NCBI GenBank assembly: GCA_002070215.1
Contig: MWCV01000019.1
Span: forward strand, 1 to 47,097
DNA: 47,097 nucleotides
Source: Chloroflexi bacterium ADurb.Bin180
Lineage (GTDB): Bacteria > Chloroflexota > Anaerolineae > UBA2200
Reading direction: 5' to 3'
Below, in pieces: positions 4,156 to 33,149 of this stretch; position 1 is the stretch's first letter, and each line of letters opens with the position of its first letter. The notes under the pieces are model-generated. The model was not told the DNA's origin. It did not search any database and saw only the letters and a program-made list of their open reading frames with translations. Position numbers and translations under genes: made by a program.

Positions 4156-4197
4156 CCAGCGCCCTCCGACCGATGAGGTCAGGGGGCGCTGGTGTTT
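4156..4197. terminator. Bidirectional terminator-like hairpin between convergent genes
   Basis: CCAGCGCCC (4156-4164) pairs with GGGCGCTGG (4184-4192), with an inner GACC/GGTC stem (4168-4171 with 4177-4180). It lies between the convergent MoaD-like gene and the channel gene and is followed on the plus strand by TGTTTC. It could serve both strands. Confidence 0.55.
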
Positions 4198-6083
4198 CAG
4201 GCGTCGGCGAGGATGATGATGTGGTCCGCCTCGGCAAAGGTGATCGGAGCTGACTTGACCGGGTTCAGATTCAGGCCCGAGTCAGTGCCCAGGTTGCTAC
4301 GAGCAGCTTTGCGGTAGCCCAGCGCTACCTCTCCCCGCGCCCGTGCCGCGTCGAGCACCGTGTAAAAGTCGACCGGCTGACCGAGCACGACATAATCGCC
4401 AGCGGGCCGCAGGTGGATCTCAGAACCCTCGGGGTTGAACAGGTCAGCAAACACCGCCGCGAGCGCCCGGTGCTCGGAGATCTGCGCCAGAGCGAGACTG
4501 ATGTACTGCTCGCTGACGATGAAATCGTCTGCTCTGGCCGAGGCAGCGAGTTCGCGGTTTCTGATGTCGAGAATCTCGGTGACAATGGAGAAGGTGTGCC
4601 CGGCCCTCTCCGCAAACTCGCGGAGATGCAGCAGCGTGACCAGCGTCTTGGCATCCGCTGCATGGCGGCTCAGCGAGTCGCAGTAGCACAAGACCGCCAC
4701 GTGATGGTAACTGGGAATGTCCAGGCCCTCGAGCGTCTCGCGGTCGGCGGTATTGCCCGAGCGAACACGCACCGTCAAGTTCACCAGAGCGCCACACTGG
4801 CGGCGGATGTCGGTCCTGGTGCGTGGCTGGTCCGAGACCACGCTGACCAGGGACCCCGGTGCGACGTAGTGGTCCAGCTCGTTGATAATGGACGCAGCGA
4901 GCCAGTTCCAGCCCAGGACGAGGATTCGCTCCGGTGGGCGAAAGCTGCGGGCTGAGCGAACGATCAGGTCCGACCGGATGTCCCACGACGTTCTTCCGGA
5001 GAGCTTGATGGTGCTGTCGTCCTCGGCAATGACGATGAGCGAGTCGCCGTCTCTCAACACCGTGTCCATGGGCGGCTTGAGCTCCGGCACGCCCCCTTTG
5101 GGCAAGACGCCGATCACGGTCGATGTGTCATAGGCCAGGAGCGTGTAAGCGAAGGTTCGACCAACCAACGTCGGCTCCTGGCGAAAGTAGATCTCGTCGC
5201 CGGCGAAATCGAGCAGCTCGCTGTACACCGCCGAGAGGCCCGGTTCGCGGCAGGCCTGAGCGGTCATTCTTGAAATGAGGTCGCCCGCCCAGACTACCTC
5301 CACCCGTCCTTCTCCGGCCAGCCGAGCGACATTGATATTCCATGGGCGCTTGATCTCGGCTACGATGTGGGCGTCCATCGGCTCATTCGCGGTGCAAAGC
5401 CTGATGGCAAGAAGAGCGCGGATGACCTCCGAGTCGGGATCGTCACCTTCGGGTGCGGGGATGATGATGGAGTGGGCTTGAACCAGGTTGGCCAAGTTCA
5501 GGTCAATGGGATTGCTCGGCACGCCGCGGCGGCACACGATTCGCGTCTTGATGCGGCCGTGCAAGGCCTGGCGGATCTCCTGATCCATCTCGGCCTTGTC
5601 CCGGTCGGCCAGAACAACCACGCAGGAGCGAGCCTCGCTGGCCATGGCGGTCATCAGCTCGCGGAGGATGATGATCACCTGCGGCGACCAGCCCAGAATC
5701 ACCGTGTGTCTCGATTCGATGACTCGGGAGCGTCCTTCGCGAAGATCGGCGATCTTTTTCCGCACCATCTCGGTCAGTGCCGCGATTAGTGTACCGGTGA
5801 TGAAGATGCCGCCAAAGGTGATCAGCAGCATCAGGATCAGGTAGACCCAGCCGGCTCCCTGGGAGCCAGGGATGGTCTTGCCAAGGGTGTGGAGGGTAAG
5901 CATCCATACCAGATCAATGAAACGGTGAACCGGGGATACTCCGAGGACAGACAGGAGCAGCGCAGATACAAGCACCAGCACCGCAGAGGCAACGGCGAGC
6001 CAGCCGATGAGCGGCAGAGTGCCGCGCGAGAGCGAGTTGTCAAAGGCATAGCGCATGCGGTCGAACAGTGTTGGCTTTTTCAT
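4197..6083 (-). CDS. CASTOR/POLLUX-like ion channel with paired RCK/TrkA-N domains
   Basis: This 628-residue membrane protein has an N-terminal hydrophobic helix (about residues 20-47), a pore-loop-like stretch ending KTIPGSQG and a second helix (VYLILMLLITFGGIFITG). Two Rossmann-like cytosolic regulators follow, with HTVILGW and RILVLGW as their nucleotide-fold openings. This is the layout of CASTOR/POLLUX channels and their bacterial relatives; ion selectivity is not evident and no TVGYG potassium filter is present. ATG 6083 is chosen over an in-frame start at 6215 because GGAGG lies 7 nt upstream and the promoter at 6163-6191 would fall inside the longer frame. It is divergent from trpD. 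Confidence 0.85.
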   Translation of the reverse strand: MKKPTLFDRMRYAFDNSLSRGTLPLIGWLAVASAVLVLVSALLLSVLGVSPVHRFIDLVWMLTLHTLGKTIPGSQGAGWVYLILMLLITFGGIFITGTLIAALTEMVRKKIADLREGRSRVIESRHTVILGWSPQVIIILRELMTAMASEARSCVVVLADRDKAEMDQEIRQALHGRIKTRIVCRRGVPSNPIDLNLANLVQAHSIIIPAPEGDDPDSEVIRALLAIRLCTANEPMDAHIVAEIKRPWNINVARLAGEGRVEVVWAGDLISRMTAQACREPGLSAVYSELLDFAGDEIYFRQEPTLVGRTFAYTLLAYDTSTVIGVLPKGGVPELKPPMDTVLRDGDSLIVIAEDDSTIKLSGRTSWDIRSDLIVRSARSFRPPERILVLGWNWLAASIINELDHYVAPGSLVSVVSDQPRTRTDIRRQCGALVNLTVRVRSGNTADRETLEGLDIPSYHHVAVLCYCDSLSRHAADAKTLVTLLHLREFAERAGHTFSIVTEILDIRNRELAASARADDFIVSEQYISLALAQISEHRALAAVFADLFNPEGSEIHLRPAGDYVVLGQPVDFYTVLDAARARGEVALGYRKAARSNLGTDSGLNLNPVKSAPITFAEADHIIILADA

Positions 6084-6124
6084 TGTGCCTCCAGCGTGCC
6101 GGTCAGAGAAGAGTGCAAGACGCA

Positions 6125-6142
6125 CTCGTTTCACGAAACGAG
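6125..6142. promoter_or_regulatory. Palindromic operator-like site in the channel gene leader
   Basis: CTCGTTTCACGAAACGAG is a perfect 8-bp inverted repeat around a 2-bp centre, placed about 15-32 nt downstream of the predicted start of the minus-strand channel transcript. The symmetry and position suit a dimeric repressor, though an RNA hairpin is also possible. Confidence 0.45.
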
Positions 6143-6162
6143 GACCGCGCTTCTGGGCGTAC

Positions 6163-6191
6163 ATTGTAGCAGGGCGACGGGCAGGCGTCAA
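6163..6191 (-). promoter_or_regulatory. Promoter of the CASTOR/POLLUX-like channel gene
   Basis: On the minus strand TTGACG (6191-6186) and TACAAT (6168-6163) are 17 bp apart. Transcription would begin near 6156, about 73 nt before the start codon. Confidence 0.7.
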
Positions 6192-6217
6192 CAAGGCTGA
6201 GCGGACAGCCCTCAAGG

Positions 6218-19727: not shown

Positions 19728-22700
19728 CTACTGGATGTTGAACAGCAGGCCGTTGCTCCGTCCCATGACCTCGGGGAAGTACATCTCGAAAGCGGTAGCC
19801 GGCATGGTGAGGAAGCTGCCCGCGAGGCTGGCGCGCATGAGGTAGGTGTATTGGTAGGTTCCGGCAGGGAGATAAGTGGCAAAGAGGGCCACCTTTTCGT
19901 CGCGCACCTCAGAGTGCACAAAGTACCACCACGGCGGCATGCGTCCGTCCTCGCCGACCAGACCAGGATCCAGGTACTGGGCGCTGGTGGTCTTGAGGCT
20001 GGGATCCAGAGCCTCGCAGCCAGCAGGCAGCGGATCCTCGACCACGACATAGTGCAGGCTGTTCGGGGCGATGATGGTCAGCTTGACTTGAATCACATCG
20101 CCCACGGCCGCGCTGGCGACGGACACCTTCGGACGCTCCAGGAGGCTGTACTCCCTCTGGACAAAGATGCCGCGGTCGAGTTCTTGCACCTGGTCGGCGG
20201 GCAAAAAGTAGCGCAGGGACAGGCTGTAGTAGAGCTGGCCTTTGCCGGTCTGGGGCGCCTGGGCGATACTGCGGTCGATGACAATCCGGTTAGCCTCCTC
20301 GCGAAGAAGGCCGCCGACATCGACGACGAGCTTGCGGGTGGCGCCGACGTCCTGCGCTGTTACCACCCCCTGGCCAAGAAGCCTGGTGTTCAGGCCAACC
20401 CGGTAGCCATAGTCCGCTTCTAGCTCACCCGTGGACACCATAAAGTCAGTGAGGGCCATCACGGACCAGGCGGTCTCCTGTGTTGTCTCCCAGTGGCCTT
20501 CCCGGCGCGCGGCCATAAGCCAGCGCACCACGTTGGGCAGCAGGGGATCGGTGGGGTCTGCCTTGAGCAGGGCCATCAGCACCAGGGCCGTGGAGCGCGT
20601 GTCGGTGCTCATCGTCCAGTAGTCCAGCTCGAGCTCTTCCCAGTGCGCGCCAGTCGCGGAGAGGATAGCCACGTTCTTTATCTCGGTGACGAGCGTGGTC
20701 ACGCGCGAGTTGTCGTTCGGCTGGAGGTTCCGCAGGGCAAGGATCAGATAGGCCTTGCCGTAGGTGCTGAGGGCAGCGCGCTGGTCATACAGAGCAACAG
20801 TCCGGCCCAGGTCGCCTTTTCCCACAACCCCCAGAACATAGAGCACAAAGGCCCGGGCGTTGGCTGAGTACTTGATGGTCAGTTCATCCGAATCCAGGGC
20901 ACCAACCAGGTAAGCCGAGGCTCTGTCCAGTGCGCTCGAGTCCACGGAAAACCCGGCCTGCCTGGCCTGGTACATGCCGAGCAGGGTGTAGGCACTGAGG
21001 AAGGGCTGCGAGTCGTCTGACAGCCACCAGCCCCAGCCCCCATCATAGTGCTGCAGCGCGTAGAGTCGCTGCAATCCCACGCCCACATACTGCGGCAGCC
21101 TGGCCTCGAGGTCCTGATTGGCAATGCCCAGCTCTCTGAGGGCTCGATAGGTGAGCACATTTGGCAAGAAGCGGCTCACCGTCTGCTCGATGCAGTCATA
21201 GGGGTAGGTCTCCAGGTAGGTCAGACCGTCCTTCATGCTCGCGGCGAGGGATGGGTCAAGCTGCAGCGTCAACTCACCCTGGCTGGCGTCGAGAACGTCG
21301 GGCAGGATGACTGTTTCTACACGCGCTTCGCCGGCTGGCACCTGGCCCGCCGTGGCCACGACCTCCGGGGCGCTGTAGGGGTACACGGGGAGCGTGAGCT
21401 CAAGGCCATCGGAGAGGCCCCCGGACGCGGCCCGCCAGGTGATCACGGCACTGCCCACTGCCCTGACCTGAACGGTCCAGAACACCGTGGCCGACCCTCC
21501 AGCCTCGACTCGCACCCGCTGCGACGGCTGCTGGAAGTCGAGAGTGGGGCACTGCAGGCTGACCTCGGCCTCGAGGGCGGCCGACGTGGCGTTGTGGACG
21601 ATGGCGCCGAGTTGTGCTTTGTCGCCCACCACAAAGAAGCGCGGTGCGACAGCCCGCACCATCAGTGGCTTGTTGGTGATGATATCGATGCTCTGCTCGC
21701 CGACGAGAGTGGAGCCGGTGAGCCCCTTGGCCGTCACCCGCCACGTGGTGAGGTTGTCAGGAAGGTCCACGGTGGCGTGGGCCCGACCCGCTACGTCGGT
21801 CCTCACCTGAGCGTTCCAGTAAGCCGTGTCCAGCAGGTTCTTGCGCACCACGTCGGTGCCGAGGTCGCCTCGTCCGCTGCCGCCTTTGCCGCTGGGCGGA
21901 GTAGTCTGTTCCAGTCGGCGTTCGGCCGATATCGACAGGGATGACCCGGTACGAACACCCAGACTCCTGGTGCCGTAAAAGGTCCCGAGCAGGGTGCCCT
22001 GCCAGCCTTCGGAGAGCGCCAGCACCGCGGCGTCGACGAGCTGCAGCGAGAACTCGGCCTGGACCGGCTGGCCGGCATAGTCGGTGGCAACGATGTCGAA
22101 ACTCGCTTGCTGGCCCGGGCGGTAGGCCTCGGTTCGGTCGGGAGTGACCTTGAGCGTCAGTTGCTTCTGCACCGTCGACACGGGCAGAGTGATGTAGCCA
22201 ACACGGTAGGAGGGGAGCGGGTTCGTGGCATCGCTGCCCTTGACCAGGACCACGGAGACAAACACGTTGGGGGCATAGTCGGGCAGGATAGGTATCTCCA
22301 CCTGCTCACTGTTGCTGCCGAGCTGCAGCACACGGTGCTGCAGGATGTGGCCTCGCTCGATGGTCAAGAGCGCCGCGACATTTCCCTGGAACGGCGAGGG
22401 GATGAGCAGTCGAGCGGTGTCGCCAGGCGCATAGGCCTTTTTGTCGAGCACCAACTCGATGCGGTCATTGTTTTCCTGCCTCCACGATACATAATCCCTT
22501 GCGCTCACCCAGAGGTAGGCCGAGGAGCGGACCTCGTTGCCGCGCGAGTCGCGGGCAAAGGCACGCACGCGGTAGGAGCCGCCCTTGAGCGGCGTGACGG
22601 CGGCCACTGCCCGGCCATCGGCGCCGCTGGTGACTGTAGTCGTGGCCACGGGGGTCTCCCTGAGCTGCCATTCCCAGTAAAAGCCTTCGTCTTTTGACTC

Positions 22701-25610
22701 GACCTGGACGTTGTACCAGTTGAGCTGGAGCAGGACAATCGTGACCGGCACGCCAGGCACCGGAGCGCTGGCCCGATCGACAGTGATGAGACGCTGTTTG
22801 GATTCCTGGCCCGCCGTGCTCAGATAGAGCTCTGGCCTGATGCCAACGTAGACGAGGCCCTTGTGCACGACTGCGCTAGTACGCGAGCTGACTTCCTGAT
22901 TGCTGGCATCGACGATGCTCGCCTCAAGAGTCCAGAGCTGGCTGTTGCGATAGGCAGCGACGTCAGCGGGAAGGCTGAAGGAGAACTGCCCCGACGCATC
23001 CGTTACTCCCTGACCGCTGGTGACGGCGGTGCCATACATCGTTTGCCGGCTGCGCGTCTCCCAGTCGACATCAACAAAGCTATAGTCGTCGCTTCCCGAG
23101 TAGGAGAAGTAATAGTCCTGGCTCAGCACGCGCCAGGTGACTGTGGCTCCAGCCACTGGCCCGCCAAAGTAGTAGCTGGATTGAACCGTAGCGGTGATCC
23201 GGTCGCCCTGGGTGTACTCCTGCTGGCTGGTGGTCACAGAGACGACGTACTCGGGCTTGCGGTACTCAGCCACGGTAAAGCCGGTACCATAGGCTCTCCC
23301 GTCCAGCTCCAGGCTCAGGCTATAGTCGCCGAGGCTGGCCTCAGCAGCGAGGTCGATCTGGCCGGCAGCGGTCCCCAGGTCATTGAGTTCCAGCTTGCCG
23401 CGATAGACTTCCTTACCCTGGTTGTCGGTGATGACCGCGATGGCGCTGTGCGCGGCAGCAGGGAGCCCGTAGTGGCCGTCATCATCGGAGCGGACCACCG
23501 CCTTGAAGTACACCGTCTGAGCTGGCCGGTAGATGGCGCGGTCTGTGTACAGGTGAACGCGGTATGGATCTGCGCCGTACTCATAGGGCAGGTCGAACTG
23601 CCACGGGGAGATGCCCTCGGTCAGCTCGGTGGAGACAAAGGCGGAAGCATCCATCGATCCGGCAAAGGCCAGTATGGTCGACCAGGCGTTCATCGCAGCG
23701 GTATTCTGAAGGGTAGTAAAGAACACCCCCTGGTTGTCGGTTCTGCCTGTTCCCAGCACCGCCTGATTCGGCCCAAACAGGGCAACATCCACGCCAGGAA
23801 GCGGCAGCCCACTCTGCAGGTCGGTAACCCACACCAGGGCCTCGGTACTGGAGGCCTTGAGCGTCACCGCGGCGTGGGAGACGACCAGGAGCTGGCGCGC
23901 GGTCGATTGGACGCCGGGAGCCGAGACCTCGAGGTAGTAGAATCCCGGTGCAAGGGCACTGACCCCATCGGTGCTCAGCGGCAGGCGAGTGGTCGCCGTC
24001 TGGTTCAACCGATTGTCGGGCACAACCTGCCAGCTCCGCAACAACCGGGTGGATTCGGGCCTGAAGTCACGCCAGCGCTGCCACCAGTCGTCGCTATTGA
24101 GCAAAAGAAAGTCAGCTCTGGTCAGCCGATACAGCCGCAGGTCAATGCGAGGCACGTTGACGTGCTGGACGGCCATCACGGTGGTGGTGTAGGCATTGAA
24201 GGCGGAGACTCGGTCCAGGGTGGACCACAGAGAAGGCTCCAGCGCCCGGGTAGTGAAGGTGACCCGAGTGGTCTGGCCAAGTCGGTGTCCGTACCGTCCG
24301 CGGGCGTCGGCGCCGATCTCGAACGAGTAGGTTCTGGAGGGTTGCGCTCCAAAGCTCAGCGTCAACTGCATATCCGAGTCGCTCCAGTACTTATCGACCT
24401 CGTCAGGCGCGGGAGTGATGGTGAGGTTGCTCATAACCGATTCGCGGTTCATCGGACTGCTGAACTGGATGCGCAGGGCGGTGCCCGGGTCAGCAGTCAG
24501 TGAGCCATCTGCTGGCCTAGTCGAGACGATGCCGGGCAGCTCGAAGGTTCTGAACGCCCAGGTTACCTCTTCAGTGGTGCCTGGACCACCAGCCGCGGCC
24601 ACAGCGCCCTTGCTCACCCGCACGACAAAGTCGGTCTGAGGAGGCAGTGCGGCAACGGGACTGAGCGCAACCGTGGAGCCGCTGACGCGGTAACTGCACG
24701 TGACCACAGTGCGGATCCTGGTGGTCTCGAGGGTCACCAGGCGCTTGACCGATGCCGAATCCATCGGCATGTTGAAAGTCACCGTGATCGTTGGGTACGG
24801 CCCAATGACCGAGAAAGAATCGCCGGCATTGAAGGACACGACCTGGGGAAACGCAGTGCGAAAGGTCCAGCGATAAGGGGACTGAAGGACCGCATCGCTC
24901 ACGGACTGGATGAGCGCGGGGTGCACCGTCACCTGATAGGTGGTTCCGGGAAGCAGGTTGGGCGACGGGTGGAAGACATAGGTGGAGGTATTCAGCCACT
25001 GGCCAGTGCCAGGCACTTCGGGGTCAATGACGAGCAGCTGGTGCAGAGCCAGGCCGCTCTGGCCCTGAATGTCGGTGAGGGGCACCACCGGTCGATTGAA
25101 TACCACCGTCAAGGCGCTGTCGATAGGTACGTCGCCCGCGTCTTGCGCCGGCACGATGCTCACTACCTCGAGATAGCCCTGCGTGCGAAAGTCAAACACA
25201 AAGTCATCCTGGAGAGCAAGGCCCGCCGCGCTTCTGGCCTGCTTGTCCAGCGTGACCCGATAGCGGGTGGCCCTGGCGAATCCGTCCCCTGACGGCAGAA
25301 AGCTGAGTCGGTTCTTGTCCCAGTGAAAGCTGCCCTGAACCGCGGGGGAGACGGCAAAAGCCGCCTCTACCGAGCGTTGATCCATCGGCTGGTCAAAGGT
25401 GAGAACCACTGGGTCAAGGGGAGCCTGCTCCTGCCCGCGCTGCGGCCCCCGGCTCACTACGACAGGAGACTGGGGAGGCAGGGGGGCGATGGTGGGCGCC
25501 GGGGTTGGCGAAGGCCGGGGCACTGGCGTGGGTTTGGTCGTGCATGACAAAAGAGTCAGAGCCACAAACACGAGAGCCAGATAGCGGAAACGAGTCCAGC
25601 AGGATGGCAT
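19728..25610 (-). CDS. Alpha-2-macroglobulin family lipoprotein with intact thioester
   Basis: A 1960-residue cell-envelope protein, at the long end for bacterial alpha-2-macroglobulins, which trap proteases by exposing a bait region and reacting through a thioester. The signal ends in the lipobox LLSC (Cys23), followed by a Pro/Thr linker. Residues about 55-480 hold several Big/SbsA-type Ig-like repeats (TFDQPMD, VVFNRPV, TFNMPMD, QFSSPMN). The MG2-like TDRAIYRPAQTVYF is near 690, the A2M domain opening DNLTTWRVTAKGLT near 1290, and the thioester CIEQ at 1473-1476. A helical region and a receptor-binding-like C-terminus follow. GGGGAGG precedes ATG 25610. It follows coaX by 70 bp, with PBP1C nearby. 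The protease partners are unknown. Confidence 0.93.
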   Translation of the reverse strand: MPSCWTRFRYLALVFVALTLLSCTTKPTPVPRPSPTPAPTIAPLPPQSPVVVSRGPQRGQEQAPLDPVVLTFDQPMDQRSVEAAFAVSPAVQGSFHWDKNRLSFLPSGDGFARATRYRVTLDKQARSAAGLALQDDFVFDFRTQGYLEVVSIVPAQDAGDVPIDSALTVVFNRPVVPLTDIQGQSGLALHQLLVIDPEVPGTGQWLNTSTYVFHPSPNLLPGTTYQVTVHPALIQSVSDAVLQSPYRWTFRTAFPQVVSFNAGDSFSVIGPYPTITVTFNMPMDSASVKRLVTLETTRIRTVVTCSYRVSGSTVALSPVAALPPQTDFVVRVSKGAVAAAGGPGTTEEVTWAFRTFELPGIVSTRPADGSLTADPGTALRIQFSSPMNRESVMSNLTITPAPDEVDKYWSDSDMQLTLSFGAQPSRTYSFEIGADARGRYGHRLGQTTRVTFTTRALEPSLWSTLDRVSAFNAYTTTVMAVQHVNVPRIDLRLYRLTRADFLLLNSDDWWQRWRDFRPESTRLLRSWQVVPDNRLNQTATTRLPLSTDGVSALAPGFYYLEVSAPGVQSTARQLLVVSHAAVTLKASSTEALVWVTDLQSGLPLPGVDVALFGPNQAVLGTGRTDNQGVFFTTLQNTAAMNAWSTILAFAGSMDASAFVSTELTEGISPWQFDLPYEYGADPYRVHLYTDRAIYRPAQTVYFKAVVRSDDDGHYGLPAAAHSAIAVITDNQGKEVYRGKLELNDLGTAAGQIDLAAEASLGDYSLSLELDGRAYGTGFTVAEYRKPEYVVSVTTSQQEYTQGDRITATVQSSYYFGGPVAGATVTWRVLSQDYYFSYSGSDDYSFVDVDWETRSRQTMYGTAVTSGQGVTDASGQFSFSLPADVAAYRNSQLWTLEASIVDASNQEVSSRTSAVVHKGLVYVGIRPELYLSTAGQESKQRLITVDRASAPVPGVPVTIVLLQLNWYNVQVESKDEGFYWEWQLRETPVATTTVTSGADGRAVAAVTPLKGGSYRVRAFARDSRGNEVRSSAYLWVSARDYVSWRQENNDRIELVLDKKAYAPGDTARLLIPSPFQGNVAALLTIERGHILQHRVLQLGSNSEQVEIPILPDYAPNVFVSVVLVKGSDATNPLPSYRVGYITLPVSTVQKQLTLKVTPDRTEAYRPGQQASFDIVATDYAGQPVQAEFSLQLVDAAVLALSEGWQGTLLGTFYGTRSLGVRTGSSLSISAERRLEQTTPPSGKGGSGRGDLGTDVVRKNLLDTAYWNAQVRTDVAGRAHATVDLPDNLTTWRVTAKGLTGSTLVGEQSIDIITNKPLMVRAVAPRFFVVGDKAQLGAIVHNATSAALEAEVSLQCPTLDFQQPSQRVRVEAGGSATVFWTVQVRAVGSAVITWRAASGGLSDGLELTLPVYPYSAPEVVATAGQVPAGEARVETVILPDVLDASQGELTLQLDPSLAASMKDGLTYLETYPYDCIEQTVSRFLPNVLTYRALRELGIANQDLEARLPQYVGVGLQRLYALQHYDGGWGWWLSDDSQPFLSAYTLLGMYQARQAGFSVDSSALDRASAYLVGALDSDELTIKYSANARAFVLYVLGVVGKGDLGRTVALYDQRAALSTYGKAYLILALRNLQPNDNSRVTTLVTEIKNVAILSATGAHWEELELDYWTMSTDTRSTALVLMALLKADPTDPLLPNVVRWLMAARREGHWETTQETAWSVMALTDFMVSTGELEADYGYRVGLNTRLLGQGVVTAQDVGATRKLVVDVGGLLREEANRIVIDRSIAQAPQTGKGQLYYSLSLRYFLPADQVQELDRGIFVQREYSLLERPKVSVASAAVGDVIQVKLTIIAPNSLHYVVVEDPLPAGCEALDPSLKTTSAQYLDPGLVGEDGRMPPWWYFVHSEVRDEKVALFATYLPAGTYQYTYLMRASLAGSFLTMPATAFEMYFPEVMGRSNGLLFNIQ

Positions 25611-25680
25611 GAACGCACCTCCCCGAGCAGAGCTCTGTCGTTGCTGTGTGGTAGACGCGATATTGAGGCGGTCAGTTCCC

Positions 25681-26448
25681 CTAGACGGGGTTGAGCAGGT
25701 GCAAGAGGCGCAGGCCGTCCAGCGTCAGCCAGGGGTCGAGGTCGTTGATTTCCGGGCTCAGGGGAGCCAGAACGCGGCTGTGACCGCCGGTGGCGATGAC
25801 CTGCGCTTCCCCGCCCAACTCGCTCTTCATGCGTCGCAAGACACCCTCGACCAGGCCGATGTGTCCCAGAACAAGCCCCGATTGCATCGATTGCACAGTG
25901 TTCTTGCCGATGGCATGCGCCGGGGCGCTCAGACTGACGCGGGGCAGTTGGGACGTAGCGCTGGTGAGAGCTTCGGCGGCGACCCCCAGCCCGACCGCGA
26001 TGGCCACCCCCTCAAAATCGCCCTTGGCGCTGACGGCGCTAAAGGTCGTAGCAGTGCCGAAATCCACCACAATGCAGGCGCCCCGGTAGCGCTGGTAGGC
26101 CGCCACGGCGTTGGCCAGCAGGTCGGCTCCCAGCTCGCGCGGGTTGTCGATGCGAATCTGCAGCCCAGTGCGGATGTCGGGACTCACCATCAGCACCCTG
26201 GCATTCACGTGGTTCGCCAAGACCTCGCTGAACACAGTGGTGAGCGGCGGAACCACGCTGGCCAGCACAATGCGGTCGACCGCGCTCAGGTCATGGCCGC
26301 CATCGCGGAGCAGCGACTTGAGCAGCATCGCGTACTCGTCTGGCATCTGATTGCGGATGGTACGCACGCGCCAGTGGGCAAGCCAGTCGTGCCCGTCCGC
26401 GAGTCCGATGACCACATTGCTGTTCCCTACATTCACGCAAAGTAGCAT
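25681..26448 (-). CDS. coaX: Type III pantothenate kinase
   Basis: CoaX phosphorylates pantothenate, the first step of coenzyme A synthesis, in the cytoplasm. The 255-residue product fits the family: ASKHA-type motif VNVGNSN (residues 5-11), a GADLLANAVAAY stretch and the DFGTATTFSAV block. Several usual residues are altered: Asp6 of DxGN is Asn, DR in GADR is DL, TFD reads TFS, and APG reads AVG. The kinase may be divergent or impaired, so activity should not be assumed. ATG 26448 is chosen because AGGAGGGG lies 4 nt upstream; the longer start at 26469 overlaps it. It is divergent from a transporter and followed by the macroglobulin gene. Confidence 0.85.
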   Translation of the reverse strand: MLLCVNVGNSNVVIGLADGHDWLAHWRVRTIRNQMPDEYAMLLKSLLRDGGHDLSAVDRIVLASVVPPLTTVFSEVLANHVNARVLMVSPDIRTGLQIRIDNPRELGADLLANAVAAYQRYRGACIVVDFGTATTFSAVSAKGDFEGVAIAVGLGVAAEALTSATSQLPRVSLSAPAHAIGKNTVQSMQSGLVLGHIGLVEGVLRRMKSELGGEAQVIATGGHSRVLAPLSPEINDLDPWLTLDGLRLLHLLNPV

Positions 26449-26499
26449 GAACCCCTCCTGGCCTGACAAACCGGGTGCTCTGGCAGTGACTGGCGATGC

Positions 26500-26528
26500 T
26501 TGCCAAACCCCTGGAAGTGTGCTAGGAT
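26500..26528 (+). promoter_or_regulatory. Promoter of the ECF transporter operon
   Basis: TTGCCA (26500-26505) and TAGGAT (26523-26528) with a 17-bp spacer; transcription would begin near 26535, giving a leader of about 95 nt. The leader contains CGGCTGCC (26580-26587) complementary to GGCAGCCG (26602-26609), just before the ribosome-binding site. Confidence 0.65.
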
Positions 26529-26565
26529 GACCCGGCCCGTGTCGAACACAGACGCTCGTTCCGCC

Positions 26566-26594
26566 ATTCTATTGGCTTTCGGCTGCCTGGTCAA
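26566..26594 (-). promoter_or_regulatory. Promoter of coaX, facing the transporter promoter
   Basis: On the minus strand TTGACC (26594-26589) and TAGAAT (26571-26566) are 17 bp apart, with predicted start near 26559. The transporter RNA begins near 26535 and runs across this promoter, so the two transcripts overlap by about 25 nt at their 5' ends. Confidence 0.65.
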
Positions 26595-26630
26595 AGAGCT
26601 TGGCAGCCGCAGGCCTCTTCAGGAGATATG

Positions 26631-27488
26631 ATGGCCGACCCGATTATCCGTCTGGATGGGGTCAGCTTTAAGTACAACGCGGGGTCCCCCGATCCCCACT
26701 TGGCTCTTCGTGACATCAACCTCCAGATATGGCCCGGCGATTATGTGGTTATCGTGGGCCACAACGGTTCCGGCAAGTCCACGTTGGCCAAGCTGCTCAA
26801 TGCACTGCTTCAGCCCACGGTCGGCGATGTGTGGGTCGACGAGATGAACACCCGTAACCAGCGACAGATCCCGGAAATCCGCAGCACGGTCGGGATGGTC
26901 TTTCAGGTACCGGACAACCAGATCGTAGCAACGGTGGTGGAGGAAGATGTGGCCTTTGGCCCCGAGAACCTGGGGGTACCGCGGGCCGAGATACGCCTGC
27001 GTGTCGATGCCGCCCTAGATGCGGTGGGGCTGACCGAAAAACGGCAGAGACCGCCGCACCTCCTCTCGGCTGGCGAGAAGCAGCGGGTGGCCATCGCCGG
27101 CGTAATCGCCATGCAGCCCAAGGTGATGGTGCTCGATGAGGCCACCGCCTACCTCGATCCGCAGGGCAGGTCGCAGGTGCTGGATGTGATTCGGCAACTC
27201 AATCGCTCCGGCATGACTGTAGTGGCGATCACGCACTTTATGCACGAAGCGGTCGAGGGCAATCGTGTGCTGGTGATGGAGAACTCGCGCATTGCCCTCG
27301 AAGGAACGCCGCGCGACGTCTTTGGCCAGGTTGAGCGACTGAGAGAACTACAGCTCGACGTGCCTCAGCCGACGGACCTGGCCTATCGGCTGCACCAGCG
27401 CTGGTCGGGCTTCCCTGAGGGCTTGCTGACTGTCCCGGAAGTGGTGGAGGAGACGGTCAAGCTGTGGCAGCGAATGAGGCCGGCATGA
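26631..27488 (+). CDS. ecfA1: ECF transporter ATP-binding protein 1
   Basis: First of two ATPases that drive an energy-coupling-factor vitamin importer at the inner membrane. The 285-residue protein has Walker A GHNGSGKST, a Q-loop FQVPDNQ, a signature helix LSAGEKQRVAIAG and Walker B VMVLDEATAYLDP. The DNQIVATVVEEDVAFGPENL stretch is typical of EcfA. ATG 26631 is preferred over 26628 because AGGAG then has a 5-nt spacing. It overlaps ecfA2 by 4 nt (ATGA) and belongs to a four-gene operon with ecfT and the S component. Confidence 0.93.
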   Translation: MADPIIRLDGVSFKYNAGSPDPHLALRDINLQIWPGDYVVIVGHNGSGKSTLAKLLNALLQPTVGDVWVDEMNTRNQRQIPEIRSTVGMVFQVPDNQIVATVVEEDVAFGPENLGVPRAEIRLRVDAALDAVGLTEKRQRPPHLLSAGEKQRVAIAGVIAMQPKVMVLDEATAYLDPQGRSQVLDVIRQLNRSGMTVVAITHFMHEAVEGNRVLVMENSRIALEGTPRDVFGQVERLRELQLDVPQPTDLAYRLHQRWSGFPEGLLTVPEVVEETVKLWQRMRPA

Positions 27489-28372
27489 GCATCGATGTTG
27501 GCGGCACGGGGCGAGAACCGCTGATCGAGTTGCGGAGTCTCGAGCATGCCTACCTGCGAGGCACGCCTCTGGAGACGCCGGCGCTACGCGGAATCACCCT
27601 GCGCGTGCTGCGCGGGGAGGCCCTGGGCATCATCGGACGCTCGGGGTCTGGCAAGTCGACCACGGTGCAGCATATGAACGGGCTGCTCAGACCCATCGCT
27701 CGCGGGCAGGCCCTGGTCTACGGCCAGGACATGGCTGACCCCGGGCTGGACATTCGCACCATTCGCCAGAAAGTGGGCCTGGTCTTTCAGCACCCAGAGG
27801 ATCAGCTATTCGAGCGACTGGTGGGCGATGACGTGGCCTTCGGCCCGCTCAGGATGGGCCTGACGCTGGATGAAGCCCGCGATCGCGTGAGATGGGCCAT
27901 GGACGCGGTGGGACTGGACTTGGCCGCTTTTAAAGACCGTTTCACCTTTTCACTGAGCGGCGGCGAAATGCGCAAGGTGGCCATTGCCGGAGTTCTCGCC
28001 CTCAAACCCGAGGTCCTCGTGCTGGACGAATCGACCTCGGGACTTGACCCCCGGGGCCGCCGTGAGCTGCTGGCGCTGATGAGGCGCTGGAAGGAGAGAG
28101 AGGGGCTCACCATCGTCTTTGTCTCCTGCAACATGGAGGATATCGCGGCACTGGTGGATCGCGTTTGCGTGCTCGACCAGGGACGCAGCGTGCTGGAAGG
28201 GCAAGTGCGAGAGGTGTTCTCCCGGCCCGCAGAGCTGCAACAGTATGGGTTGAATGCCCCGCAGATCACCGAGATCCTCGTGGAGCTCAAAGAACGGGGG
28301 TTGGACGTGGACCCGCGCTGCAGCAACGTGGCCGAGGCTGAGGAGCAGGTGTGGAAGACTTTGAGTACCTGA
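27485..28372 (+). CDS. ecfA2: ECF transporter ATP-binding protein 2
   Basis: The partner ATPase, 295 residues. Walker A is GRSGSGKST, the Q-loop FQHPEDQLFE, the signature LSGGEMRKVAIAG and Walker B VLVLDESTSGLDP, with a conserved D-loop. It pairs with EcfA1 to form a heterodimer that contacts the coupling helices of EcfT. GAGG lies just before ATG 27485, which overlaps the ecfA1 stop; its own end overlaps ecfT by 22 nt, so all three are tightly coupled. Confidence 0.93.
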   Translation: MSIDVGGTGREPLIELRSLEHAYLRGTPLETPALRGITLRVLRGEALGIIGRSGSGKSTTVQHMNGLLRPIARGQALVYGQDMADPGLDIRTIRQKVGLVFQHPEDQLFERLVGDDVAFGPLRMGLTLDEARDRVRWAMDAVGLDLAAFKDRFTFSLSGGEMRKVAIAGVLALKPEVLVLDESTSGLDPRGRRELLALMRRWKEREGLTIVFVSCNMEDIAALVDRVCVLDQGRSVLEGQVREVFSRPAELQQYGLNAPQITEILVELKERGLDVDPRCSNVAEAEEQVWKTLST

Positions 28373-29208
28373 GACACGTCACCATCGGTCAGTACCTTCC
28401 CGGAAGCTCGCTGGTGCACCGGATGGATCCGCGCGCCAAGATGATCATCCTGTTCCTGATGGCCGCCGCGGTGACGGTGAACATGTCCTACACGGCCAAC
28501 ATCATTCTGCTGGTGGTCAGTGTGGTCTACGTGCTGGCAGCCCGGGTTTCGCTGCGCTACATCCTCGGCGGAGTCAAGCCCGTATTACCGTTTATGATCC
28601 TGTTAGCCGCTATGCAGCTCCTCTTCTATGGCAACCAGTTCATTGGCCCGAACCTGCAGAACGTGGTTCTCTGGAAGTGGTGGATTGTCAACGTCACTAC
28701 CGGCAGTGTGCAACTGGTGGTCATTTCCATCCTGCGGTTCCTGCAACTGCTGTTGCTGGCCAGTCTGCTGACCAACACGACCACCACAACTGAACTATCG
28801 CATGGCGTGGAGCGGCTGCTGCGTCCCCTGGCACGGATAGGCGTGCCGGCGCACGAGCTATCACTGGTCGCGACCATCGCCCTGCGCTTTGTGCCCATTC
28901 TGGCGGAACAGCTCGAGACGGTGGCCAAGGCTCAGGCGTCACGAGGGGCAGAGCTGGCAGGGGGCGGCCCGCTGCACTTGGTTCAGTCGGCGCGACGGCT
29001 GGCGGTGCTGATTGTACCCCTGTTTATGGACGCCTTTCGCCGCTCGGAAGATCTCATTCTGGCCATGGAGGCACGCTGCTACCTGGGCGGTAAGAACCGC
29101 ACCCATCTCATCGAGCTGAGGTATAATGGGATAGACTATGCGGCGATAGCAGCAAACCTCGTGCTCGCCGTCTGGCTCATTGTCTATCGCAACCGGTTTC
29201 CGTTCTAG
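28351..29208 (+). CDS. ecfT: ECF transporter transmembrane subunit
   Basis: EcfT couples ATP hydrolysis to the S component in the membrane. The 285-residue protein starts IGQYLPGSSLVHRMDPRAK, characteristic of the family, has about five hydrophobic helices, and carries the two Ala-Arg-type coupling motifs, ASRG and EARC, in the cytosolic helices. GTG 28351 has GAGGAG upstream and overlaps ecfA2. It is followed by the S component gene after 58 nt. Confidence 0.92.
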   Translation: MEDFEYLRHVTIGQYLPGSSLVHRMDPRAKMIILFLMAAAVTVNMSYTANIILLVVSVVYVLAARVSLRYILGGVKPVLPFMILLAAMQLLFYGNQFIGPNLQNVVLWKWWIVNVTTGSVQLVVISILRFLQLLLLASLLTNTTTTTELSHGVERLLRPLARIGVPAHELSLVATIALRFVPILAEQLETVAKAQASRGAELAGGGPLHLVQSARRLAVLIVPLFMDAFRRSEDLILAMEARCYLGGKNRTHLIELRYNGIDYAAIAANLVLAVWLIVYRNRFPF

Positions 29209-29266
29209 CCAGGCAGAAGAACAAGGTGCCTTTCCTGACCGCAGCGGAGATGAAGGAGGTAGTTCG

Positions 29267-29809
29267 ATGCAAAGCGGGCTGAGTGTGCGCAAGATCGTCA
29301 TTTCTGGCGTGCTGGGGGCAATTGCCATCCTGCTCGGAGCAACAAGACTCGGATTCATCCCCGTGCCGTTTATCGTGGGCGACGCGACCATCATGCACGT
29401 GCCGGCGATCATCGGCGGAATCCTTGAAGGGCCCATCGTGGGGGCCATCATCGGCACCATCTTTGGGGTGTTCAGCTTTCTCCAGGTGGGGGCACCCATG
29501 TTCAAAGATCCGCTGATCTCGATCCTCCCGCGCGTCCCCATCGGCGTCACGGCGTTTCTAGCCTACGCCGCACTGAAAAAGCGCAACGAGTACCTGGCCC
29601 TGATCATCTCAGCCATTGTGGGCACGTTCACCAACACGCTGTTGGTGCTGGGCATGGCCGTGCTGAGGGGCTACCTGACTCCTGCCGTCGCGGGCGCGAT
29701 CGTGCTGCCTTTTGGCTCGGCCGAAGCAGTCCTGGCAGCGATCATCGTGGTGGCTGTGGTCAGCGCCTGGAAGCACCTCGAGTCGGGGCACGGCAAGTCC
29801 AGGATCTAG
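29267..29809 (+). CDS. ECF transporter S (substrate-binding) component, pantothenate suspected
   Basis: The 180-residue protein has about six hydrophobic helices and resembles the PF12822-type S components, including those thought to bind pantothenate, through GFIPVP...DATIMHVPAIIGGILEGPIVGA. The substrate is not readable from a motif; the pantothenate call rests on the family and on the divergent coaX. Other vitamins remain possible. ATG 29267 is chosen because AAGGAGGT lies 6 nt upstream; the longer frame from 29180 overlaps ecfT. It converges on the PBP1C gene with a 9-bp gap and no terminator is seen. Confidence 0.85.
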   Translation: MQSGLSVRKIVISGVLGAIAILLGATRLGFIPVPFIVGDATIMHVPAIIGGILEGPIVGAIIGTIFGVFSFLQVGAPMFKDPLISILPRVPIGVTAFLAYAALKKRNEYLALIISAIVGTFTNTLLVLGMAVLRGYLTPAVAGAIVLPFGSAEAVLAAIIVVAVVSAWKHLESGHGKSRI

Positions 29810-29818
29810 CTGCGAGCT

Positions 29819-32296
29819 CTAGCGCAAGACGGTGATCTGAACTGCCTCGGAACAGAAGGACCGTCCCACAGGGTCGGTCAGTTCGGCGACAAAGGTGTGC
29901 TCGCCCGGCGTGAGCTGCCACAGCGTCGCGTACGGAGGTGAGGTCAGCTCGTTCAGAAGCTGATCGTCGGCGTACAGGCGAAGCGACGCCACTTCCACCG
30001 AGGCCTGGGCGCGCACCTCGATGCGTTGTGAGTCTTCGGGAACAGAGGATACCATCCGGTAAGTGGTGCCGGCGCGCGGGCTAACCAGGACGACCGCCGG
30101 CGCGGGTTTCGCAGAGCCGCCGGCCGGACTCGTCCGGTCGATGAAGTAGTGAACCCCCACGCGGTACTGCTGCTCGGCCACCCAGTCGGCCGCTTCTGCT
30201 GGCAAAAAGACCCCAACCTGTCGGCGCAGGTACTCGGGCCGGGTATCAGGCGAGGCCAGCTCGCCAGTGCGTGAGTCGACCTCGACCCGGCGATGCATTG
30301 TGCAGGTCGCAGTCGGGCCGTGTCCCTCGATGAACCACTCCTGGCGAACGGGACACCACGGCCCCGGAAGCGCCCCTGACTCGGCGCACACGGTCTCCCT
30401 GACCATCCCCTGAGGTACGTCGAAAGGCAGCACTGCCTGGCCCTTCAGTGCCTCGAGCATGACATCATGCCAGAGCGGAGCGGCCCCGCTGATCCCGGAC
30501 ACATCGACCATGGGCGAGTTGTCCGCGTTGCCCGTCCACACGCCCACCACGAGCTGCGGCGTGTAGCCCACGGTCCAGTTGTCTCGCCAGTCGGTAGTAG
30601 TTCCTGTCTTGGCGGCAGCGGGTCGATCCAGGGTGAGTGCGCTATCTTCGCCAAAGGCAGGGATTCTCGCCTCGTCGTCGGCCAGGATGTCCGTGATCCA
30701 GAAGGCTACCTTCTCATCGAGGACGCGCGCGCGAGCCGGCGTAGCCGCCTGCCTGAGCAGAGCGCCGGAAGCGGCCTCCACGCGCGTGATGGCCACCGGG
30801 TCAACCCTCAGGCCGCCAGACGCAAAGGCCGCGTAGGCTGCCGTGAGGTCAAGCAGCCTGACCTCACCACCGCCGAGCGTGAGAGACAGACCGTAGCGCT
30901 GCGGGTCGGTAAGCGTAGAGAGGCCCATCCGCTGTGCCAGATTCACGACCTGCGGAACGCCAACGTGATCGAGGGTCTTGACCGCAACCACATTCAGCGA
31001 CGAGCCGAGCGCCTCCCGCAGGAGCACCGGGCCGTGGTAGATACGGTCATAGTTCACCGGAACGTAGGTCGCGCCTTCACGCGTGGTAAAGGCCGACTCG
31101 ATATCCAGTACCATCGTGGCCGGCGTCCAGGCGGGGTCGTTGCTGAACGCAGCGGCGTAGGTCACCGGTTTGATAGCCGAGCCCGGCTGCCGGGGCATCA
31201 GGGCGACGTTGACTGCCCCGCTGATGCGCAAGTCAAAGTAGTCCGGGCTGCCCAGCATGGCCAGAATCTGCCCGTTGCGCGGGTCGATGGCTACCACCGC
31301 GGCGTCGGTGACGTTGTGCGCTGGCTCGTTCACCTGCGCCACAGAGAGCTGGCTCAGGTGGTAGCGCGCGAGGGATTCCACGCGGGCCTGGAGGTCCACG
31401 TCCAGCGTGGTGTGCACCCGCAGGCCGAGCCGGTAGATCTGCTCATCCCCAAACTCCTGGCGCAGCAACCCCCAGACGTACATTATAAAGTGCGGAGCAC
31501 GAATGGGAAAGGGAGTGGCCGCATAGTGGAGCTGCTCGTTCGCCGCCTGCTCTGCCTCCTGAGGCGCAAGCAAACCTTGTTTTACCAACAGCCCCAGAAC
31601 CACCGCCTGACGAGCCTGTGCGGCTGCTGGGTCGCTCAATGGGTCGTAGAGGGCCGGCGCCTGAGGAAGCCCGGCGATGAGGGCACACTCAGCCAGGTCC
31701 AGATCCTGAACCGGCTTGCCAAAGTAGGTGCGAGAGGCTGCTTCCACGCCGTAGGCCAGGTTGCCGTAGTAGATCTGGTTCAGGTAAAGCTCGAGAATGC
31801 GCTCCTTGCTCAGCGTCCTGGCCAGCCGGAAGGCGAGGATGGACTCGCGCAGCTTGCGCCGCAGGGTTCGCGGGGTGCGTTCCTCAGGACTCAGAAGCAG
31901 ATAGCGTGCCAACTGCTGGGTGATGGTACTGCCCCCGGAGAGCACCTCACCGCCGCGCAGGTTGATCCAGAGAGCGCGCAGGATGGCCCGCGCGTCCACA
32001 CCGGGATTGGCGTAAAAACTGGCATCTTCCGTAGCGACTGTAGCCTCACGCAGCCACAAGGGGATCGACTCGAAGGACACCGGCTGGTGCCGGCCCAGAT
32101 TGGGGTCGAGAATCTCGTACAGCACCCGACCGCGTCGATCATAGATGATCGTGCTAGGGGCGATTCCCGCGCTGGATACCCGACGAGGATCTGGCAGGTC
32201 GCGGAGCAGCCATAGGTAGACTGCTCCGCCGATGACGACGAGTGCGCCGGTCAGGAGCAGAGCCAGACGTGATCTGGTAAGCATCTTCTTGGCCAT
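29819..32296 (-). CDS. pbpC: Penicillin-binding protein 1C, bifunctional glycosyltransferase/transpeptidase
   Basis: A class A PBP of 825 residues that polymerises and may cross-link peptidoglycan outside the inner membrane. An N-terminal helix (residues ~8-30) anchors it. The GT51 domain has EDASFY with catalytic Glu90 and GGSTITQQLAR. The transpeptidase domain has SAIK with Ser373, SLN and KTGTT. The C-terminal ~90 residues form a BiPBP_C-like beta domain (LVSPRAGTTYRM...AEL), the PBP1C hallmark. In many bacteria the PBP1C gene adjoins an alpha-2-macroglobulin gene; here they are 4 kb apart. ATG 32296 is used, though ATG 32284 with AAGAAG upstream is possible. It follows the CAAX protease gene by 70 bp and is probably cotranscribed. 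Confidence 0.93.
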   Translation of the reverse strand: MAKKMLTRSRLALLLTGALVVIGGAVYLWLLRDLPDPRRVSSAGIAPSTIIYDRRGRVLYEILDPNLGRHQPVSFESIPLWLREATVATEDASFYANPGVDARAILRALWINLRGGEVLSGGSTITQQLARYLLLSPEERTPRTLRRKLRESILAFRLARTLSKERILELYLNQIYYGNLAYGVEAASRTYFGKPVQDLDLAECALIAGLPQAPALYDPLSDPAAAQARQAVVLGLLVKQGLLAPQEAEQAANEQLHYAATPFPIRAPHFIMYVWGLLRQEFGDEQIYRLGLRVHTTLDVDLQARVESLARYHLSQLSVAQVNEPAHNVTDAAVVAIDPRNGQILAMLGSPDYFDLRISGAVNVALMPRQPGSAIKPVTYAAAFSNDPAWTPATMVLDIESAFTTREGATYVPVNYDRIYHGPVLLREALGSSLNVVAVKTLDHVGVPQVVNLAQRMGLSTLTDPQRYGLSLTLGGGEVRLLDLTAAYAAFASGGLRVDPVAITRVEAASGALLRQAATPARARVLDEKVAFWITDILADDEARIPAFGEDSALTLDRPAAAKTGTTTDWRDNWTVGYTPQLVVGVWTGNADNSPMVDVSGISGAAPLWHDVMLEALKGQAVLPFDVPQGMVRETVCAESGALPGPWCPVRQEWFIEGHGPTATCTMHRRVEVDSRTGELASPDTRPEYLRRQVGVFLPAEAADWVAEQQYRVGVHYFIDRTSPAGGSAKPAPAVVLVSPRAGTTYRMVSSVPEDSQRIEVRAQASVEVASLRLYADDQLLNELTSPPYATLWQLTPGEHTFVAELTDPVGRSFCSEAVQITVLR

Positions 32297-32366
32297 GGTA
32301 CTCGATCAGTGGACGACGTGCGCGCGGCCGCTGTTCCCACGGGCGCACGGAAGCGGCGACGTCAGT

Positions 32367-33149
32367 CTAGAGCGCCAGTCGCTCGCTCACATAGAGCAGC
32401 AGGAAGGACAGGCTGTTGATGAAGGTGTGAACAAAGATGGCCGGCCACAGGGAGCCGGTCAGCTCGAGCAGCCCGGCGAACAGCACGCCGAGCAAGAAGA
32501 TGGGCGGGTAGGAGGTCGGCAGGATGTGAATCAGCGCAAAGATCAAGCCGTTGAGCAGCAGCGCCCACTTCAGGCCCAGATGCTGCCTCATACCGGCGAA
32601 CAGGTAGCCGCGGAAGAAGACCTCCTCGGCAAAGGGTCCGACCAGACCGCCGGCCAGGAGGGCAGCAACGAGCCCGCCGATTCCGCCGCCAAAAAGGGGC
32701 AGCATGTTGGGTTGGGTACGCAGATTGAAAAGGCTGAGCACCAGCGACCAGATGACGGTGCCGGTCATTGCCAGTGCCCACGCCGCGCATCCCAGGACCA
32801 GGCCACGCACCATACTGAAGGGCCTGAAGCCTACGCTGGACCAGCCCAGCCCATGCCGGCGCAGACCAAACCACCACACCGGCAGCAGCAGGCCCAGTTC
32901 ACCGATGAGGGTGATCGCGCCGGTGACCTGCTTGGGGAGTGGCGCCGACAGGCGTGACTGAAGCACTGCCAGCGCAGCAGTGAGGGCGAAGGTCAGGACA
33001 AACATGGAGGCAAGGCCGCTAACGCCCACCGCCACCAACTCCCGCTTTGACCAGGGCAGCGACGGTGGGGGAGTGCCGCGGTCCTCGAGCAGATTGCCTC
33101 CTGGTACCGTAGAGATGCCGCTGTCGGCAAGGTCCGGCTGGTTGCTCAT
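32367..33149 (-). CDS. CAAX-family (CPBP) intramembrane metalloprotease
   Basis: A 260-residue membrane protein of the Abi/CAAX family, glutamic-type intramembrane proteases related to Rce1. Motif 1 is EEVFFRG, motif 2 FALIH, motif 3 HTFINS, all with the catalytic Glu and His residues in place. About seven hydrophobic helices are visible. Substrates in bacteria are mostly unknown; some members act in bacteriocin immunity or peptide processing. ATG 33149 is chosen because GAAGGAT lies about 7 nt upstream and the longer frame has no support. It is transcribed from the promoter at 33259-33287 and precedes pbpC. Confidence 0.88.
   Translation of the reverse strand: MSNQPDLADSGISTVPGGNLLEDRGTPPPSLPWSKRELVAVGVSGLASMFVLTFALTAALAVLQSRLSAPLPKQVTGAITLIGELGLLLPVWWFGLRRHGLGWSSVGFRPFSMVRGLVLGCAAWALAMTGTVIWSLVLSLFNLRTQPNMLPLFGGGIGGLVAALLAGGLVGPFAEEVFFRGYLFAGMRQHLGLKWALLLNGLIFALIHILPTSYPPIFLLGVLFAGLLELTGSLWPAIFVHTFINSLSFLLLYVSERLAL

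Follow-up and report, generated by a model that had tools for sequence, protein, structure and literature searches.

CoaBC is counted among the near-universal enzymes and as an antibacterial target. Type III pantothenate kinases (CoaX) contact pantothenate through an arginine of the PAN motif, and the known members of this class cannot use pantetheine (PMC8721197). Mycoplasmas carry Leu or Ile in this motif of the kinase, and eight of the species are without CoaBC; the authors suggested that these enzymes use pantetheine, and the proteins were insoluble (PMC8721197). A coaBC deletion in B. subtilis survives on pantethine, and use of pantetheine by this organism needs CoaA, not CoaX (PMC11487621). 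ECF importers of the type solved from L. brevis (4RFS) and L. delbrueckii (6ZG3) are named ECF-PanT (PMC7755397). In E. coli, yfhM-pbpC (ECAM/PBP1C) places a lipoprotein alpha-2-macroglobulin (A2M) with a CxEQ thioester next to PBP1C (PMC4498604).

Here we analyse a locus in which such genes meet. It lies in a stretch of 47,097 nucleotides (hereafter the window) from a 3.13-Mb Anaerolineae assembly that is 95% complete. Our preferred reading of the sequence, to which we give a probability of about 0.55, is that an ECF importer and a CoaX-derived pantetheine kinase would together bypass CoaBC, encoded in a module that was inserted between A2M and PBP1C and partly replaced.

Gene content of the locus

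All of the genes that the earlier note had named, that is, A2M, CoaX, a four-gene ECF importer, PBP1C and a CAAX protease, are present and open according to the ORF list and to domain and family scans (Table 1). Their order is A2M (-), CoaX (-), EcfA1-A2-T-S (+), PBP1C (-) and CPBP protease (-). The four ECF genes overlap one another (26628-29809, +) and lie on the strand opposite to all flanking genes, divergent from CoaX-A2M and convergent with PBP1C. Misassembly is unlikely because a congener (G001) independently displays the identical order.

Table 1 Features of the locus, with positions in the window, strand and basis of assignment
Feature	Position	Strand	Basis
A2M lipoprotein, YfhM/ECAM type, bystander flank	19728..25610	-	Pfam domains, phmmer, family alignment
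A2M CIEQ thioester, Cys1473-Gln1476	21183..21194	-	Invariant, alignment of six sequences
A2M lipobox cysteine Cys23 (LLSC)	25542..25544	-	Invariant, alignment of six sequences
CoaX-like kinase, GADL type, predicted pantetheine kinase	25681..26448	-	PF03309; phmmer 2h3g; start with ribosome-binding site
CoaX Val148	26005..26007	-	Gly in 61/64 CoaX of genomes with CoaBC
CoaX Ser137	26038..26040	-	Asp or Asn in 64/64 CoaX of genomes with CoaBC
CoaX Leu110, replaces PAN-motif Arg (GhDR to GADL)	26119..26121	-	Sequence comparison
CoaX Asn6, for usual phosphate-1 motif Asp	26431..26433	-	Also Asn in G001 and family f3
Divergent intergenic region, outward promoter-like sites	26449..26627	.	Sites 26594-26566 (-) and 26500-26528 (+)
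EcfA1, ECF ATPase	26628..27488	+	TIGR04520, 344 bits
EcfA2, ECF ATPase	27464..28372	+	TIGR04521, 312.9 bits, under cut-off 330
EcfT, transmembrane coupling subunit	28351..29208	+	Pfam CbiQ, E=5.7e-35
EcfS, PanT-like substrate-binding subunit	29180..29809	+	Pfam PF12822; phmmer to PanT
PBP1C, bystander flank	29819..32296	-	TIGR02073 over cut-off; BiPBP_C
CPBP (CAAX/Rce1-like) membrane protease	32367..33149	-	PF02517; synteny

The A2M protein (1960 residues) comprises the domains bMG3, MG2, bMG5, bMG6, bait-region, A2M, TED and bMG10, and matches E. coli YfhM (5a42; phmmer E=8e-43). Its lipobox and CIEQ thioester, both intact as the note had stated, are invariant in an alignment of the window protein with five relatives from the family or order; the thioester reads CIEQ or CAEQ in the orthologues at the loci read. 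The lipobox, the CxEQ thioester and the bMG/TED domain order are those of a YfhM-type A2M, and protease trapping is a putative function of the protein. A second A2M is encoded in the same genome (L071, contig C44); it is 27% identical, has a CSEQ thioester, and no PBP1C match was found within the 20 kb read around it.

PBP1C scores 495.9 bits with TIGR02073 (cut-off 494.2) and 29.2 with BiPBP_C (cut-off 26.8). As a class-wide marker of PBP1C, BiPBP_C was too weak in the window's family (hereafter f1), and the window PBP1C protein was used as query instead. The best start of the CPBP protease is the ATG at 33149, which coincides with the end coordinate in the earlier note. This gene also adjoins PBP1C in G001 and in G002 of f1; synteny comparison found no CPBP match beside PBP1C in G005 (f1) or G006 (same order, another family).

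CoaX (255 residues) matches PF03309, the type III pantothenate kinase family, at 220.9 bits (cut-off 24.7) and the solved 2h3g with E=4.6e-63 (phmmer). Translation likely begins at the ATG at 26448, which follows AGGAGGGG, and not at the TTG further upstream (26469). The promoter-like sites between CoaX and EcfA1 are consensus matches only (2 found against 0.7 expected in 4.5 kb), and there is no Rfam match to an RNA regulator at the CoaX-ECF module. Elsewhere in the window, a molybdenum/tungsten-cofactor riboswitch (RF01055, 164-276, +, 44.4 bits) lies directly upstream of an aldehyde:ferredoxin oxidoreductase gene (207-2117, +); the listed start of this ORF overlaps the riboswitch, and the true start is therefore probably further downstream. 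The gene at 4197-6215 (-) encodes a protein with the middle domain of the CASTOR/POLLUX ion channels (E=2.2e-25), a family best known from plants.

An insertion in the A2M-PBP1C pair

The pairing of A2M with PBP1C assumed by the earlier note was borne out: the two are genuine, widely conserved neighbours, of the type known as YfhM and PbpC in E. coli (PMC4498604). A second set comprised 80 named A2M loci. PBP1C adjoins A2M with neither ECF nor CoaX between them in 31; the insert lies between the two in only 2 of the 80, UBA2200 (same genus as the window) and MAG-37 (same family). The window resembles E. coli in having a lipoprotein A2M with a CxEQ thioester associated with PBP1C. The genes are adjacent in E. 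coli, however, whereas about 4.2 kb of CoaX-ECF separate them in the window. Of 100 Anaerolineae genomes, 21 have CoaX and an ECF S gene on one strand and no more than 2.5 kb apart, and 28 have PBP1C next to A2M; both pairs meet only in f1.

Within f1, G002 and G005 have the order PBP1C, ECF-CoaX, A2M, with all genes pointing the same way. G004 has T-S-CoaX-A2M on a short contig, and in G003 both ends of the arrangement match but are on two contigs. The ECF block of the window and G001 is reversed relative to that of G002 and G005. CoaX-ECF thus lies next to A2M in at least three of the four genera of the family, and probably in all four. In G002 (L064, 5313-6116) and G005 (L065, 5587-6429), PBP1C and the ECF operon are separated by a gene for a beta-lactamase-fold hydrolase, which the window's genus does not have at this place.

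According to the earlier note, a single unit would be refuted by relatives with A2M and PBP1C adjacent and coaX/ECF elsewhere, as a sign of recent rearrangement. Such a relative exists: in G006, PBP1C is next to A2M, and a separate contig carries EcfA1-A2-T-S-CoaX. The insertion is nevertheless retained within one family and is therefore no recent accident. On our reading, the pair was opened by an insertion in an ancestor of this Anaerolineae family. Because pair and module meet only there, the striking A2M/PBP1C surroundings of the module are incidental, and the locus is two unrelated things, an envelope pair and a CoA-precursor salvage insert.

In family f3, CoaX lies beside A2M in convergent orientation without ECF or PBP1C; one such case fits chance. 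In Peribacteria-type genomes (L128, L134, L136, L141, L142, L144, L149 and L153), A2M comes first and PBP1C second, opposite to the order that is usual in Chloroflexota.

Identity and origin of the importer

Two ATPases, EcfT and an S component are encoded in one operon, as expected of an ECF importer, and the solved proteins closest to EcfS are PanT (L. brevis 4rfs_S, phmmer E=1.3e-9; L. delbrueckii 6zg3, E=2.6e-4). This upholds the assignment of coaX and the importer to a CoA-precursor module. The EcfA-EcfA'-EcfT-S plan is shared with ECF-PanT, and the S components align over 137-153 residues. Unlike ECF-PanT, the window importer has its own A-A'-T genes in the same operon, and it occurs with a partner kinase whose substrate site is altered, in genomes without CoaBC. 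We compared 31 EcfS sequences from genomes with and without CoaBC at the L. brevis PanT site: R95 and N131, both known to be important for pantothenate in PanT, are kept in all 31, whereas the site Trp (W64) is Phe in all 31. Since the pantothenate-site Arg and Asn are retained everywhere, the cargo of the importer is less certain than the kinase switch described below, and pantothenate itself may be what EcfS carries. EcfS has parallel shifts that are weaker than those in CoaX; the clearest is at residue 82 (Met to Leu), and the cassette that was swapped into the window's genus shows it as well. In the 100 Anaerolineae genomes, panC is present in 1 of the 32 with a strong PanT-like S gene and in 34 of the other 68.

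The importer genes at this position are of different origin within f1. An insert that EcfS has in all other family members read is missing in the window and in G001, and each of the four window ECF proteins has better scores with families f14/f15 than with f1. In a concatenated ECF tree of 23 cassettes, f1 as a single clade is rejected (lnL lower by 314.5, p-AU 1.5e-61; the clade was chosen after the identities had been seen, and the margin is very large). By contrast, f1 stays together in the CoaX tree (SH-aLRT 99) and in the A2M tree (99/99), from which it follows that the importer was swapped while CoaX stayed. A simple inversion of the ECF block is ruled out by the lack of orthology between its genes and those at the same spot in the sister genera. 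The importer genes of the window's genus were thus replaced, later than the insertion, and the ECF cassette that took their place is a distant relative and lies in reverse orientation.

An altered substrate site in CoaX

CoaX shares family, length and the GAD and GTATT motifs with the type III kinases 2h3g and 3bex. It differs from them in GADR to GADL, TTFD to TTFS and Gly148 to Val, and the window protein also in Asp6 to Asn. In place of the PAN motif GhDR, GADL is found in the window CoaX and in 19 other CoaX sequences. The two other switched columns, 137 and 148, may line the substrate pocket. Asn6, in place of the phosphate-1 Asp, could lower the activity of the window enzyme.

Of the proteins measured in the block, CoaX is the most conserved (dN/dS 0.10, window against G001); it is under strong purifying selection and is therefore not decaying. 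Families f1-f4 and f9 retain CoaX at full length. In G002, EcfS and A2M are separated by two CoaX genes in tandem (L064, 9921-10679 and 11274-12029); VVDFGT has become VVNFGT, with Asn for Asp, in the copy beside EcfS, and is unchanged in the copy beside A2M.

The CoaX switch and the absence of CoaBC

We read 90 CoaX sequences from the 100 Anaerolineae genomes, which are mostly MAGs. All 20 GADL sequences come from genomes without CoaBC, and 64 of the 70 GADR sequences from genomes with it. By genome, GADL compares with GADR as 0/19 to 62/68 for CoaBC (Fisher p 2.5e-14), 0/19 to 32/68 for panC (p 7e-5) and 18/19 to 14/68 for the PanT-like S gene (p 4e-9), all uncorrected for kinship; the genomes in these tables are non-independent, and the effective sample amounts to about three origins, with the mycoplasma precedent in addition. 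Six GADR genomes, some of them incomplete, also lack CoaBC. In the CoaX tree, leucine needs three changes (a clade of 17 sequences, G034 with G067, and G044), of which the strongly supported branches force only one; G094, the sister of G034 and G067, has Arg (GADR) and CoaBC. Columns 137 (Asp/Asn to Ser/Thr) and 148 (Gly to Val/Ala/Cys) change together with 110 in all three Leu groups. Loss of the arginine is thus tied to the absence of CoaBC in a clean and apparently convergent association.

CoaBC was not found in the six f1 genomes, in G006 or in family f3 by two independent searches, one with Pfam, which matches all 14 control genomes, and one with the CoaBC of a relative. Splitting or divergence is an improbable cause, as the same searches recover split CoaB/CoaC in G011, G047 and G078. 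So is incompleteness: the chance that all 19 genomes would miss the gene is about 1e-23, a rough figure that equates completeness with the chance of detection and assumes independence. A substitute CoaB encoded beside ECF-CoaX was also sought, and the CoaBC-less genomes share no extra gene there. Families f39 (G043, G074) and f5 (G009, G046, G077), which are without CoaX, have no convincing CoaBC either.

None of panB, panC and panD was found in any of the six f1 genomes, and the organism is therefore predicted to rely on import of a CoA precursor. The window genome has CoaE; no CoaD turned up in the part of it that was read (1.67 of 3.13 Mb, 53%), and a CoaD-like match in L283 proved to be NadD. 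Five GADL genomes (G006, G008, G034, G044 and G048) have panB without panC, an apparently broken pantothenate pathway.

A proposed pantetheine route and its alternatives

In our model, the ECF transporter would import a pantothenate-like CoA precursor, the GADL CoaX would phosphorylate pantetheine to 4'-phosphopantetheine, and CoaD and CoaE would complete CoA, a route that would bypass CoaBC and make PanBCD unnecessary. We infer that pantetheine is both the substrate of the kinase and the molecule imported. The change from Arg to Leu would fit a substrate without a carboxylate, and pantetheine kinase activity would make CoaBC dispensable. CoaA salvage in E. coli and B. subtilis likewise converts pantetheine to phosphopantetheine and bypasses CoaBC, but through a type I kinase that is structurally unrelated; B. 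subtilis CoaX does not do so (PMC11487621). The mycoplasma type III kinases have the same Arg to Leu change in CoaBC-less species (PMC8721197). There, the change was described for the group in general, whereas within a single class, the Anaerolineae, it has about three origins, separates CoaBC-less from CoaBC-bearing genomes and goes together with an ECF importer.

A classical route would have EcfS import pantothenate, CoaX phosphorylate it despite Leu110, and unrecognised, non-homologous enzymes supply the CoaB and CoaC activities. Non-orthologous replacement occurs in cofactor pathways, which gives this reading a general precedent; the kinship of EcfS with solved PanT, its retained Arg and Asn, and the avoidance of panC by strong PanT-like S genes are also as expected of a pantothenate importer. 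We consider it unlikely, if the most serious competitor, since CoaBC is absent precisely where CoaX has lost the Arg that contacts pantothenate, in about three lineages, and no candidate gene beside ECF-CoaX is common to the genomes lacking it. That CoaX is inactive or repurposed, with CoA made from imported phosphopantetheine or dephospho-CoA by CoaD/CoaE, is less probable again. Asn6 in the window's genus and f3 and the Asn for the motif Asp in one of the two G002 copies would suit such a loss, and a similar option was raised for mycoplasmas (PMC8721197). The strong purifying selection on CoaX speaks against it, as do its full length in f1-f4 and f9, its place beside a PanT-like importer in many families and the presence of that importer in 18 of 19 GADL genomes.

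The possibility left open by the earlier note, that A2M through the CAAX protease form one envelope-defence unit, here one needing a CoA supply, is very improbable. The genus and, for the most part, the family have preserved the gene order, and CoaX and A2M stand in tandem with a 70-bp gap, so that co-transcription is possible. Yet the two halves are independent outside the family; G006 and the 31 loci without the module largely refute a single functional unit. The ECF genes of the window's genus, moreover, run in the opposite direction and have a different origin, and PBP1C has no CPBP match beside it in G005.

Implications

A switch to pantetheine has already been suggested for mycoplasmas (PMC8721197); here, the association with CoaBC loss is clean and apparently convergent. 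The Anaerolineae proteins offer new material for a direct test of that suggestion. For a more general reading, the odds seem to us about even: that a type III kinase became a pantetheine kinase about three times in the Anaerolineae and, with an ECF importer, would serve an obligate CoA salvage that replaces PanBCD and CoaBC in genomes of ordinary size. If the pantetheine reading is true, the kinase would have a type III activity reported for no characterised CoaX, and the annotation 'coaX plus PanT-like ECF' can mislead. Metabolic predictions for Anaerolineae would then change, with auxotrophy for pantetheine, not pantothenate, which would bear on cultivation media.
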